A stretch of DNA of 33,051 bases, from contig CADDYS010000016.1 of the NCBI GenBank assembly GCA_902810715.1, forward strand, positions 1 through 33,051, written 5' to 3'. Of this stretch, positions 20,844-28,136 are shown piece after piece. Below the pieces are notes generated by a model. It made no database searches and was not told the DNA's origin. It saw only the letters and a program-made list of their open reading frames with translations. Positions within the stretch are counted from its first letter, which is position 1, and every line of letters starts with the position of its first letter. The stretch comes from a bacterium (GTDB lineage Bacteria > Actinomycetota > Aquicultoria > Aquicultorales > Aquicultoraceae). A program made the translations under genes and the position numbers.

Positions 20844-21509
20844 TTATTCAAAAAACATCTCGGCAGTGCCGGTTGGGTCGAGATCGCCGGCTTCTGGTGT
20901 GTGTGTCTCCAGAAGCTTTTTTGCCGCGGTTCTTAATACATAGTCATAAGCTTCTTTTGCCAGCCATTCGATATAGGTCGGGTCTTCAGCAAGGACGTCT
21001 CCAAGGGTTTTATCTGCGTGCTTACCGAAGGATAGAACGACGGTTTCAGGGTTCTCAAGCCATGCCGATTTTACTTCCGTCTCGACTTCTTTTTCTGACT
21101 TACGGGATGACTTCTTGCCACCGTTTGAATTGTGGTTGTTTCCGTTTGCGCCCACAATCGGCTCGCTCTCGTTTATCTCCTCGACAGCAGTTATGCCGAC
21201 GTTTACCGCAATCCTGATGGCGCGGGCTATGGCGCGGGTGTCGGCTAAGCGAACCAGATGGGGCTGCATGGGGCGCTCCGCAGACTCCGGCGAGGCGTCG
21301 CCCAATGCTGAAAATATCCCTTTATCCGTCTCAATAACGGCGCGCACTATCGCAAGCATACCATTATCCTTATGCGGGGCCTGCAGGAGTTGGGTCTCCA
21401 CCCTCTTTAGGCCCTCTGCATGGGCCATCTCCAGGAGACCCTCGAAGAGAACAAAGTCTTTGCCCTGGATCTTCTTAGTAAATTTTGCAGGGAGTTTGTG
21501 TTCTGACAT
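20844..21509 (-). CDS. Putative single-strand-annealing-like protein with ExoX-C-like tail; SOS-controlled
   Basis: 221 residues. Residues about 20-112 contain ALGDASPES and RLADTRAIARAIRIAVNVGITAVEE, the type of block seen in Rad52/DdrA-like annealing proteins (by eye, not by search). A low-complexity linker (about 118-142, asparagine, serine and lysine rich) leads to a C-terminal domain VLSFGKHADKTLGDVLAEDPTYIEWL, which resembles the DUF3820/ExoX C-terminal domain found on repair nucleases. I use the ATG at 21509: AAGGTGGTAAGGA precedes it, whereas an upstream frame extends over the promoter. A perfect SOS box lies 21 nt upstream of that ATG. The likely role is DNA damage repair; annealing activity is an inference. 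Confidence 0.6.
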   Translation of the reverse strand: MSEHKLPAKFTKKIQGKDFVLFEGLLEMAHAEGLKRVETQLLQAPHKDNGMLAIVRAVIETDKGIFSALGDASPESAERPMQPHLVRLADTRAIARAIRIAVNVGITAVEEINESEPIVGANGNNHNSNGGKKSSRKSEKEVETEVKSAWLENPETVVLSFGKHADKTLGDVLAEDPTYIEWLAKEAYDYVLRTAAKKLLETHTPEAGDLDPTGTAEMFFE

Positions 21510-21530
21510 TTCCTTACCACCTTCCATCTG

Positions 21531-21544
21531 CGAACGTTTGTTCG
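21531..21544 (-). promoter_or_regulatory. LexA (SOS) box upstream of the annealing-like gene
   Basis: CGAACAAACGTTCG on the minus strand is an exact CGAAC-N4-GTTCG palindrome, the SOS box of Bacillota and Actinomycetota. It begins 5 nt after a TACAAT -10 box, covering the expected transcription start. Confidence 0.88.
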
Positions 21545-21549
21545 TATTA

Positions 21550-21578
21550 ATTGTAATATATTGGTAATTTATGCGCAA
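21550..21578 (-). promoter_or_regulatory. Promoter of the annealing-like gene
   Basis: Minus-strand TTGCGC (21578-21573), a 17-nt spacer and TACAAT (21555-21550) fit a sigma-70-type promoter with a weak -35. The SOS box lies immediately downstream. Confidence 0.65.
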
Positions 21579-24678: not shown

Positions 24679-24692
24679 CGAACGGTTGTTCG
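24679..24692 (+). promoter_or_regulatory. LexA (SOS) box upstream of nurA
   Basis: CGAACGGTTGTTCG is an exact CGAAC-N4-GTTCG site. It starts 5 nt after the TACAAT -10 box and 42 nt before the nurA start codon, so bound LexA would block transcription start. Confidence 0.9.
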
Positions 24693-24720: not shown

Positions 24721-25926
24721 TTGCTTGATTTAAGCAAACTGCAGTTGCAAATAAAAGCACTTAGCAAACATCAAAGAGACCGGATGCGGGGCATAGCAGA
24801 GGCCTTCAGCATTGCCAGCGAACAGGTCAACCTGGTCTCGGATAACGTTGAGGCGTTTGTAAGCAAGGTCAGCCGCTCATCTACATCCTGGCTGGTTGCT
24901 ATGCCGACTGAGGAGCACCCGTTTGCGTCACATCGCCCAGTTGCATGCCCCGGCTCCTATGCAATTCTTTCAACGGATGGTTCGCAGATAAACCCCGACC
25001 GCCACAGCCCATACCGTGCTTTTTTGATAAACATCGGCAAAGTCGAGATAAGCTACGGGGATTACTCGGGATATCGCATTGAAAGTGAGCCAAGCCTTTT
25101 CTTTGAGGAAAAAGATATCGTGCGCCGCTTCGGCGGCAAGGAACGCGAGGTATCCGGCGGGGTGCTTGCCGCCCTTCGGCAGAAAATGGAGTCCGAGTCG
25201 CTCACTAATATGATTGAGGGATGCAAAACAAAGCCGGCGGTCGCGCTAATTGACGGCACGCTTATCCTCTGGAGCCTTGAGACCGAGCCGGGTATACTGG
25301 GGGGACTCGGCACCGATGACCTGAAACTGCAATCGTTTATCTCGCTCATGCAGTTAATATCCACCGGAAAAAAATCCGGTATTCCGGTTGCCGGGTACAT
25401 CAGCTCACCGGGGAGCAACGATGTTGTAAATGCGTTAAAGGTAAGTCTTTGCCCAAGCGAGCCTGTTGACTGCGATAGCTGCCCGTACAAGACGGGGGGT
25501 TTTGATGGGTCACTTCCCTGTGCTAAGATAGATAGAATCACGGATGCCGGGCTGTTCCGCCGGCTTCTTCAACTCGGCGAGCGATCTTCACTGTTTGGAA
25601 GTATATCAAAAATCCTGAAGGATTACGGTGAAGAAAAAATATATTTTTTCTATATAAATGTAGGCAAAGAAATCGCCCGAGTTGAAGTACCGGGCTGGGT
25701 TGCCCGCAACCCGGATGCAGTCGCACTGGTACATGCCGTCTGCCTGGACCAGGCAGATAAAGGGGTCGGCTACCCTATCGCAGTGGCCGAGGCACACGAG
25801 CAGGCTGTTGTAAAGCAGACAGATAAAAACATATTTGACCAGCTTGTTTTACAGGCATTAATAAGACAGGGTTCCCCCGTGATTGAATCCCGCAAAGCCA
25901 TTCGCAAAAAGGGAGGCTTTGTATAA
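24721..25926 (+). CDS. nurA: NurA-family DNA end-resection nuclease
   Basis: 401 residues. NurA is the 5'-3' nuclease partner of the HerA translocase. The RNase H-like core is visible: ILSTDGSQINPDRHSPYRAFLINIG (metal aspartate Asp86), AVALIDGTLILW with a second acid, AGYISSPGSNDVVNAL, and the C-terminal VPGWVARNPDAVALVHAVCLDQADKGVGYPIAVAEAHE block. An N-terminal coiled helix precedes the core. The start is TTG (24721) with AGAGGTG 8 nt upstream. First gene of a three-gene operon with a HAS-barrel protein and herA, under an SOS box. Confidence 0.93.
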   Translation: MLDLSKLQLQIKALSKHQRDRMRGIAEAFSIASEQVNLVSDNVEAFVSKVSRSSTSWLVAMPTEEHPFASHRPVACPGSYAILSTDGSQINPDRHSPYRAFLINIGKVEISYGDYSGYRIESEPSLFFEEKDIVRRFGGKEREVSGGVLAALRQKMESESLTNMIEGCKTKPAVALIDGTLILWSLETEPGILGGLGTDDLKLQSFISLMQLISTGKKSGIPVAGYISSPGSNDVVNALKVSLCPSEPVDCDSCPYKTGGFDGSLPCAKIDRITDAGLFRRLLQLGERSSLFGSISKILKDYGEEKIYFFYINVGKEIARVEVPGWVARNPDAVALVHAVCLDQADKGVGYPIAVAEAHEQAVVKQTDKNIFDQLVLQALIRQGSPVIESRKAIRKKGGFV

Positions 25927-26502
25927 ATGTCCGAACGAATCGGAGAGATAATCGAAGTCTATACAACCAGGTTCTTGGCACAGGCAGATGGCCTTGAAAA
26001 CCCTCCGCATTTTGGAAGCTTTGTTAAAGCCGAAAGCCAGGGTATGGCAATCTACGGCCTTGTCTATAACGTGCATGAGACAAGCATCGACCCAAACCGG
26101 CGCGCCGTGGCCTTTGGGATCGAGCGCACGGAACTTTTTAAGAGACAGCCGCAGATCGCCGAGTTTTTAAAGATTGAGTTTGAGGCAGCGATCATCGGAT
26201 TTAACGATGCCGGATACATCCGGGCGTATCTTCCCCCCTTCCCGCCAAGGATTCACAGCTTCATCTATCCCTGTGAGAAACAAGAAGTGCTTGACTTAAC
26301 GGAGGACTTAGAATTCATCCGAAGCATAAACGCTTTGCCGGGTTTGCCTGTTGAGGAGTTAGCTGCAGCTTCAATCCGTCTAGCTTGCTCTGAGCGTGGC
26401 AACGACCGTGCGTTTCTTGTTCGCGCAGGGCAAGAAATAGCCCAGCTTTTAAAAGAAGAGTATGAGAAGGCGAGAAGTATCATCAGGAGAATAAGCGATT
26501 GA
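25927..26502 (+). CDS. HAS-barrel protein of the HerA-NurA locus
   Basis: 191 residues. IGEIIEVYTTRFLAQADGLENPPHFGSFVKA is the pattern of the HAS barrel (HerA-ATP synthase barrel), usually found at the N-terminus of HerA. Here it is a separate protein with a helical C-terminal half (about 125-191). The ATG follows the nurA stop directly, with GGGAGG inside the nurA end, and the herA TTG start overlaps its TGA (TTGA). The tight coupling suggests that it is a subunit or adaptor of the HerA-NurA complex (inference). Confidence 0.78.
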   Translation: MSERIGEIIEVYTTRFLAQADGLENPPHFGSFVKAESQGMAIYGLVYNVHETSIDPNRRAVAFGIERTELFKRQPQIAEFLKIEFEAAIIGFNDAGYIRAYLPPFPPRIHSFIYPCEKQEVLDLTEDLEFIRSINALPGLPVEELAAASIRLACSERGNDRAFLVRAGQEIAQLLKEEYEKARSIIRRISD

Positions 26503-28136
26503 AAGATAAGGCACAGGAGATCGGAAAACTTATCGCGGGCTCACTTCTATCCGGCCTTGAGGCAAAGTTAAACGAAGATATTAACGTCGAGGGGATATCG
26601 GTTGGCCGCTTAATAGTCGTTGATGGCAGAGAGAACAAGTTTTTCTGTTTATTAAAAGATGTTTCGCTTGAGGCGACCAATGAAGATATTTTACTTAACC
26701 CGCCAAGCGGGGATTTTGCAAGGCAGGTGCACGCGGGGGTAAATACCTTTTACAAGCTCTCGGTGCAGCCGATGCTTATTACGGCGCAAAATCCAACCGA
26801 CTTAGACAGGCCCCGGCCCTCAACTACAGTGCCGCCGCACTTCTCCCCTGTCTGCGAGGCCTCAGCTGAAGACGTTTCGCTAATATTCGGTGCGCCGGGG
26901 ATCACCAACCCCGAGATAGGCTCACCGATATTTATGGAAGTTCCGGTCTGTCTTAACCTTGAGAGATTTTGCAAGCGAAGTAACGCGATATTTGGCAAAA
27001 GCGGTTCGGGCAAAAGCGTACTTGCCCGGATGGTTTTAGGCTACCTTATCAAAAGCGACATGGCGATAAACCTTGTCTTTGACATGCACAACGAATACGG
27101 CTGGAGCGCAACCAACGAGGGCGGCATCGATGACCCCAGCCTAAAGCAGCTTCTGGGAAGCAAAGTTGCAATATTCACCGTTGATTCCAACTCGCCGCTT
27201 TACCGAAAAATCCGCGCCGACTACGACGTGCAGATTCCCTACGGCGCAGTTGAGATAGCCGATCTCGAGCTTGCCGCGGGCGAGCTAGGTCTAACTCAAG
27301 CCGGTATCGAGACGATGTACCGCCTCGCGGATAAGTGGGGCGAGGACAAGTGGCTTGCTAAGTTCTTGGATATGGATACCGATGAGTTCCCCCAAGTCGT
27401 TGAGGATTTAAAAGTAAACGAGCAGGCCCTAAATAAGCTTCGCCGCTGCCTCGACCGGCTAAAGAAGCTTCCCTTCATCCGAAAAGAAGTCGCCGACGAC
27501 ACGGTTAACCGGATTATGGATTTTATCCAGGATGGCAAGCACATCGTTTTCCAGTTTGGACGCTACAACTCGATGCTTGCCTACATCCTGGTCGCAAATA
27601 TTCTGACGCGCAGGCTGCATAAGCTTTATGTTGATAAAACTGACAGTGCACGGGCCGACGGAGTCGACGGGCCGAAACCTTTAGTTGTAACAATCGAGGA
27701 GGCACATAAATTCCTGGACCCACAAGTCGCCCGGCAGACAACCTTTGGCACAATTGCCCGCGAGATGCGAAAGTACAACATGGTTCTTCTTTTAATCGAC
27801 CAGCGGCCAAGCGGTATCGACGACGAGGTGCTATCCCAGGTAGGCACGCGCATAATCGGCGACCTCGGCGACGAGCGGGATATCAACGCGGTACTTACCG
27901 GGCTCCCCAATCAAGGGACGCTAAAGGTATTGATAAACAACCTTGAGCCCAGGCAGTTTTTGCTTACCGGATTTGCGCTTCCGATGCCGGTTGTAATCGA
28001 TGCCAAAGACTACGGCAAATTCTGTAGCGAGATTTCGCTTGGCTCGGGAATAATACTGGATGAGATCGAGCGGCGAAAGACCGTGGATGAGCTTAAAGCC
28101 CAAGTGTACGGCGATGACCAGATTATTTTTGATTAA
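26499..28136 (+). CDS. herA: HerA-family hexameric DNA translocase/helicase
   Basis: 545 residues of the HerA/FtsK ATPase group. An N-terminal barrel-like region (about 30-60, ISVGRLIVVDGRENKFFCLLKDV) precedes Walker A FGKSGSGKS (165-173), DMHNEYGW, Walker B with the catalytic glutamates LVVTIEEAHKF (396-405), and LLIDQRPSGIDDEVLSQVGTRI with the sensor and arginine-finger region. In archaea HerA drives NurA to make long 3' tails at double-strand breaks together with Mre11-Rad50. TTG start, 4-nt overlap with the HAS-barrel gene. Confidence 0.94.
   Translation: MKDKAQEIGKLIAGSLLSGLEAKLNEDINVEGISVGRLIVVDGRENKFFCLLKDVSLEATNEDILLNPPSGDFARQVHAGVNTFYKLSVQPMLITAQNPTDLDRPRPSTTVPPHFSPVCEASAEDVSLIFGAPGITNPEIGSPIFMEVPVCLNLERFCKRSNAIFGKSGSGKSVLARMVLGYLIKSDMAINLVFDMHNEYGWSATNEGGIDDPSLKQLLGSKVAIFTVDSNSPLYRKIRADYDVQIPYGAVEIADLELAAGELGLTQAGIETMYRLADKWGEDKWLAKFLDMDTDEFPQVVEDLKVNEQALNKLRRCLDRLKKLPFIRKEVADDTVNRIMDFIQDGKHIVFQFGRYNSMLAYILVANILTRRLHKLYVDKTDSARADGVDGPKPLVVTIEEAHKFLDPQVARQTTFGTIAREMRKYNMVLLLIDQRPSGIDDEVLSQVGTRIIGDLGDERDINAVLTGLPNQGTLKVLINNLEPRQFLLTGFALPMPVVIDAKDYGKFCSEISLGSGIILDEIERRKTVDELKAQVYGDDQIIFD

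Follow-up and report, generated by a model that had tools for sequence, protein, structure and literature searches.

A 221-codon gene on the minus strand of a 33,051-nucleotide stretch of bacterial DNA (the window; positions 20,844–21,509) encodes what we take, with a probability of about 0.8, to be a Rad52-superfamily single-strand annealing protein (SSAP) of phage descent, now seated in the chromosome and under host SOS control. The genome to which the window belongs, as contig C16, measures 2.43 Mb and is 98% complete; those closest to it in the genome collection are metagenome-assembled genomes from the family of Candidatus Aquicultor secundus. An initial annotation, made from the sequence alone, had described an annealing-like N-terminal domain, a disordered linker and an ExoX-C-like tail with no nuclease motif, and Pfam and AlphaFold confirmed this layout. 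The fold is predicted to be of the Rad52 type, and we infer an annealing activity, an oligomeric form and a partner for the tail. The protein probably helps to mend broken chromosomes.

The open reading frame (ORF) is a real gene, as judged from its orthologues, low ratio of non-synonymous to synonymous change (pN/pS), conserved neighbours and conserved promoter. Orthologues from the same genus and from other genera of the family are 79–91% identical, with synonymous sites strongly diverged and protein sites little changed. For the N-terminal domain, pN/pS was 0.02 against the same-genus orthologue (0.16 for the rest of the protein), 0.04–0.12 against other chromosomal orthologues and 0.24 against a diverged second copy, L024. 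Translation starts at an ATG at 21,509 and ends with the stop at 20,844; a longer ORF of 290 amino acids from a TTG codon was rejected, because the ribosome-binding site, the promoter and conservation of the start mark the ATG as the true start. The likely ribosome-binding site (AAGGTGG, 21,517–21,523, minus strand) lies 8–14 bases 5′ of the ATG and is conserved in relatives. A likely sigma-70 promoter (21,550–21,578, minus strand), predicted from sequence, has a −35 element TTGCGC (21,573–21,578), a 17-base spacer and a −10 element TACAAT (21,550–21,555), a layout that relatives keep.

The annealase-like N-terminal domain (21,174–21,488, minus strand; residues about 8–112, delimited from AlphaFold2 models and family alignments) was modelled in two AlphaFold2 runs that agree on a hairpin at residues 11–20, a helix at 22–31, strands at 36–43, 53–61 and 64–72, and a long helix at 79–102. 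Predicted local confidence (pLDDT) exceeds 90 over most of the domain, and the predicted TM-score (pTM) is 0.84 for the domain alone. The Rad52 superfamily fold has been described as an antiparallel sheet of three strands with a long helix across it, a second helix and a beta-hairpin (PMC9870868), and the predicted domain has its elements in this order. Foldseek was run against PDB and viral structure models. Among the viral models, most named matches were RecT, Erf, Bet or SAK3 proteins, at E about 1e-4. In PDB, the full-length model placed Sak of Staphylococcus phage 80alpha (SSAP_Sak, PDB 8pq8) second, as the top-ranked solved SSAP structure, although at E 0.064 only, with 11% identity and without a sequence match.

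A link to Rad52 at the level of sequence centres on the long helix (helix 3; 21,204–21,275, minus strand; residues 79–102), which overlaps the segment RLADTRAIARAIRIAVNVG (residues 87–105) and in which R87, T91, R92 and R96 are invariant and R99 nearly so. When column profiles were compared with 136 phage Rad52-type sequences, the best ungapped match was helix 3 (PHLIRMAETRAKARAL / ESAIKEAETDAMKRAL; maximum-score p about 0.02 when columns were shuffled); in line with the same register, the strand 4–5 region gave a weak match that was not significant. That proposed register would put T91, R96 and R99 on RAD52 T148, R153 and R156, residues in contact with single-stranded DNA (ssDNA) at the inner strand (PMC9772228; RAD52 residue roles also in PMC3823998). 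One relative, L111 (E 3e-23 to the family), scored just above the Rad52_Rad22 cut-off (20.4 versus 20.3 bits), with the match spanning the sheet and helix 3. PHROG 22961, of unknown function, matches residues 6–115 (9e-10), whereas NCBIfam and PDB yielded no usable sequence match; CiaD-like Pfam matches (E 0.003–0.1) and PDB phmmer matches were dismissed as noise, and no assignment of the N-terminus to an unrelated enzyme family appeared. Together with phage neighbourhoods described below, the predicted fold, the L111 score and the helix-3 register support the annealing-like N-terminus that had been proposed.

Expression of the gene appears to be tied to DNA damage. A LexA/SOS box, CGAACGTTTGTTCG (21,531–21,544), predicted from sequence, lies just downstream of the −10 element and ahead of the start codon; read on the gene strand, the upstream region runs TTGCGC, 17 bases, TACAAT, 5 bases, CGAACAAACGTTCG, 21 bases, ATG. 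In all six readable relatives with a chromosomal copy the box keeps this distance from the ATG, with five perfect boxes (G001, L020; G002, L003; G004, L004; G005, L023 and L006; G007, L022 and L007) and one with a single change, GTTTG (G003, L021 and L005); the second copy, L024, is without a LexA box. Two strict boxes were found in the window, where 0.05 would be expected. One pattern search of the 2.4-Mb genome, together with individual stretches, placed perfect CGAACN4GTTCG at four sites, in front of the SSAP gene, nurA, recA and a sulfate adenylyltransferase-like gene (the last two named from translations). The lexA genes themselves carry 9/10 or 10/10 boxes in all readable members of the order (one could not be read), that of the window genome having one-mismatch boxes; outside the order, two of three lexA genes have such boxes and one does not. 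As far as sequence can tell, the SSAP gene bears the mark of a LexA/SOS regulon gene, a conserved promoter box that lexA and recA of the same genome also have.

The second box in the window, CGAACGGTTGTTCG (24,679–24,692; likewise predicted), lies upstream of nurA (24,721–25,926, plus strand; PF09376, E 4.8e-26), a putatively co-regulated neighbour that encodes a nuclease of end resection. Behind nurA come a gene for a HAS-barrel protein (25,927–26,502, plus strand; PF09378, E 8.4e-5, 23 bits, below the cut-off of 25.2) and the HerA helicase gene (DUF87; 26,499–28,136, plus strand; PF01935, E 3.4e-29). Each of the other 11 order members examined (L469–L479) has a 9/10 or 10/10 box ahead of nurA, and nurA-herA appears to be an SOS operon in this order. 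In the five genomes that have the SSAP gene and nurA-herA on one contig, these two boxed units are separated by 3 to 13 kb. NurA is present in 12 of 12 examined order members, including genus g5, which is without the SSAP, and was unmatched in both Rubrobacter-family genomes tested, though the SSAP is present there. Because each occurs without the other, HerA-NurA was rejected as an obligate partner; of the co-occurrence that the initial annotation had suggested checking, common SOS control and close linkage are supported within the order, and obligate pairing is not. The SSAP was also rejected as a replacement for RecO, which is found in the window genome, throughout the order and in nearly all relatives. 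In a genus g5 genome lacking this SSAP (G008), a Pfam Rad52_Rad22 protein with an extra N-terminal part is encoded beside ssb (L185:1141–2690; 60 bits); it is possibly a replacement of the SSAP, or a mobile element.

Rather than an orphan, as it was first described, the protein belongs to a large, unnamed family outside existing SSAP family models. With an alignment of diverse members, the family was found in 44 of the 396 genomes sampled from the phylum, mainly those of the window's own family and of family f23, which contains Rubrobacter and mostly carries two copies. Further members occur in Chloroflexota and on 75 viral contigs, many of these distant; a viral scan with the single SSAP protein as query returned nothing, and the family alignment was needed to find the viral relatives. 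Phage members lie in replication and recombination modules: in Paenibacillus phage API480 between the host-nuclease inhibitor gene (Gam) and ssb, in Rossellomorea phage phiT1 near dnaB, with an annotation as DNA repair and recombination protein, and at L100 near a RusA gene. In a quick tree of 111 columns with long branches, in which its exact placement is unsure, the Aquicultor clade (SH-aLRT 100) is nested among viral and phage/plasmid rows and separate from those of Rubrobacter and Chloroflexota (SH-aLRT 96). A second SSAP in G001 (L024, 577–6354) is 66% identical to the window SSAP and has the ExoX-like tail; its contig also encodes a DnaB helicase and is probably a phage or other mobile element. 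Given this branching among phage sequences, the second copy near a DnaB gene and the chromosomal place of the window copy, the window SSAP looks like a domesticated phage gene. Both SOS control and domestication are strongly supported by sequence.

Several results weigh against an SOS-controlled Rad52-type annealase. With the domain alone, double-stranded RNA-binding domains (dsRBDs) ranked first among PDB structures in Foldseek (E 2.9e-3), nothing fell below E 0.001, and no SSAP was in the top 50. No known-SSAP sequence model of Pfam, NCBIfam or PDB matches the protein, which is below the Pfam cut-offs of Rad52_Rad22, ERF, RecT and SSAP_Sak and belongs to none of these families. Statistical support for the helix-3 match is modest, and where RAD52 has K152 the window protein has alanine. 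Alignment of the family with Rad52, Erf and Sak profiles by hhalign was not significant; we give this result no weight because known relatives (Rad52 versus Erf or Sak) failed as well, leaving the test powerless. The four perfect boxes in the genome are not above chance, with about 2.3 expected from base counting and nine occurrences of the reversed control pattern, and so the SOS argument rests on the positions and conservation of boxes. The fourth, L452 (G000:C1:46884–46897), just before the sulfate adenylyltransferase-like gene, may be chance or a real site. We regard the structural case for a Rad52-type fold as good, not closed.

Gene context in the Rubrobacteraceae suggests another role, with a Rad52-type domain that binds ssDNA and aids loading of RecA or the primosome, annealing not being its main job. 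In clade A of this family, at L079:4385–8175 and in 19 of 21 loci, a DnaB_2-domain primosome gene and a helicase-loader-like (IstB/DnaA-type) ATPase gene come immediately before the SSAP gene, in what reads as a chromosomal primosome–annealase operon. SSB-like ORFs follow the SSAP in 8 of these 21, and several of the remaining stretches end too early to judge; on the R. marinus chromosome the run of primosome genes and SSAP continues with a ComEC-like gene and ssb, both named from sequence. This primosome context supports a function in recombination or restart, and the window's host has recO and recA. As the principal job of the window protein, mediation or restart is nevertheless somewhat unlikely: no primosome gene is nearby in the window's lineage, the phage slots (Gam, SSB, RusA) suit annealing equally well, and RecO is already in the family. 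In Rubrobacteraceae clade B the SSAP adjoins MarR-type and sigma-70 genes, and almost none of the Rubrobacter homologues has a LexA-type box directly upstream.

The sole Pfam domain found in the SSAP is the ExoX-like_C tail (PF20600; 20,955–21,035, minus strand; residues 159–185, E 2.7e-10, 39.9 bits against a cut-off of 26.5), which includes FGKHADKTLGDVLAEDPTYIEWL (residues 161–183) and sits in a helical region that extends to about residue 203. It is joined to the N-terminal domain by a disordered linker (21,066–21,164, minus strand; residues about 116–148) of low pLDDT, below 50 at residues 129–132 and 137–146 in the AlphaFold model, and of a length that varies among relatives. No nuclease domain was matched in Pfam or NCBIfam, and the catalytic domain of exodeoxyribonuclease X is absent (17.9 bits with the NCBIfam exoX model, which requires 202). 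In the family census, every member of the window's Aquicultor lineage has the tail, and none of the 75 other genome loci and no viral or phage member has it; outside the lineage the C-terminal part is of another kind, either a stretch that is probably helical or a segment resembling a zinc ribbon. The view of the architecture as uncommon holds for the fusion, which within the family is restricted to this lineage, and not for the N-domain, which is widespread. C-terminal regions of other SSAPs bind partners (PMC11783212), and by analogy with these the tail is probably a docking module.

It could be argued that the tail is the working part and that the protein is an adaptor recruiting a nuclease, its N-domain only tethering it to ssDNA. 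The domain is named for exodeoxyribonuclease X, it is kept in every member of the lineage, and it recurs on another phage protein; the N-domain, however, is the more conserved half (pN/pS 0.02 versus 0.16) and occurs without this tail in all other lineages, which makes such an adaptor improbable. The other phage protein is WBM89946.1 of Lacticaseibacillus phage R9.1 (L016:4401–5327), which bears the same ExoX-like_C domain behind a different N-part. By eye this N-part has a helix–strands–helix order, yet it has no detected sequence relation to the window SSAP, and the protein is possibly an independent SSAP fusion.

Less probable still is a recombinase of a resident phage or prophage that does nothing for the host, for all that the Aquicultor clade falls within otherwise viral and phage/plasmid rows and G001 has its second copy near a DnaB helicase gene. 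The window copy is flanked by LemA and PPDK genes on one side and MgtC, DUF523 and PHP genes on the other, all ordinary chromosomal genes whose arrangement is kept across other genera, and this synteny largely excludes a prophage; the gene is also served by a promoter of its own, which carries a LexA box of host type, and its N-domain pN/pS against the same-genus orthologue is very low. The initial annotation was right that the window copy is not beside phage genes, and its preference for a chromosomal repair factor over a prophage recombinase holds for that copy; the lineage itself branches among phage sequences, and one relative has a second copy near a DnaB gene. An RNA-binding protein of dsRBD type is the least probable reading. 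Its two supports are the PDB matches of the domain alone and the shared shape of the helix–three strands–helix core, but SCOP classes the Rad52 core with the dsRBD-like fold, and such matches are to be expected. DNA is indicated by the beta-hairpin added to that core, the place of relatives in phage recombination modules, the SOS control shared with recA and nurA, and the RecT, Erf and Bet matches among viral models.

Most known annealases of the Rad52 type come from phages and eukaryotes. Phage Rad52-type SSAPs (Rad52_Rad22; for example, ORF252 of Lactococcus phage ul36) share with the window protein the order of secondary structure, the helix-3 signature in register and, in phages, proximity to ssb; the window protein differs in having no Pfam match to them, a shorter domain (about 105 amino acids), alanine at the K152 position and a different C-terminal tail. 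Erf and RecT/Red-beta resemble it through the viral models so named, whereas PF04404 and PF03837 have no match in the window genome, in which no other SSAP was found with these two models or PF04098. To our knowledge, the best-known chromosomal Rad52-type protein of bacteria is DdrA of Deinococcus. DdrA is a Rad52 homologue used after radiation (PMC515370) and, by description rather than direct comparison, is like the window SSAP chromosomal, damage-linked and Rad52-related; the Rad52_Rad22 model matches in the Deinobacterium and Thermus control genomes and not in the window genome.

Taken as an SOS-controlled annealase, the protein might act as follows. LexA cleavage after DNA damage would switch on the SSAP, recA and nurA-herA, and NurA-HerA would resect broken ends. 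The N-domain may oligomerise on the exposed single strands and anneal complementary stretches or aid RecA loading, and the ExoX-like tail, on its flexible linker, could dock the annealase to a partner, for which SSB, a nuclease or the NurA-HerA complex are candidates. In this order, the sequences support a common regulon and neighbourhood for the SSAP and nurA-herA.

An unnamed branch of putative annealases is fixed in the chromosomes of at least three bacterial lineages, in two of which promoter sequence implies induction by damage, in the Aquicultor order together with recA and nurA-herA. The second of these is Chloroflexota, where GAACN4GTTC occurs within 200 bases upstream of 18 of 28 homologues (0.045 expected; 8 of 609 control ORFs of those loci), the 28 including near relatives and hence not all independent. 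Loci with such boxes include L025, L027, L034, L036, L043, L053, L057, L070, L084, L086 and L094, and their flanks (often TAGAACN4GTTCT and variants) differ from those of the Aquicultor boxes. We found no description of this SSAP family, nor of LexA control of such an SSAP, in the open-access literature, of which coverage was partial. More tentatively, bacteria may have kept a Rad52-like route by vertical descent, with LexA-controlled NurA-HerA and a domesticated annealase in Aquicultor relatives and with chromosomal kin that have LexA-type boxes in Chloroflexota and belong to a primosome operon in Rubrobacteraceae, where they could aid radiation survival; the genus Rubrobacter includes radiation-resistant species (PMC4148983). 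The damage-linked annealase branch gives a testable proposal for the use of HerA-NurA resection products in bacteria, and repair candidates in Rubrobacter.

Two minor features were seen among relatives. SSB-like acidic C-terminal tips end only 3 of 183 family ORFs and are no family trait; they are EEDPF, DDLPF and DELPF, on the L018, L019 and L121 proteins (phage or plasmid members). One-mismatch LexA-type boxes, CGAACATATGTTTG, lie upstream of the mgtC-DUF523 genes beside the SSAP at L003:1187 and L004:1426 and are absent in the window.
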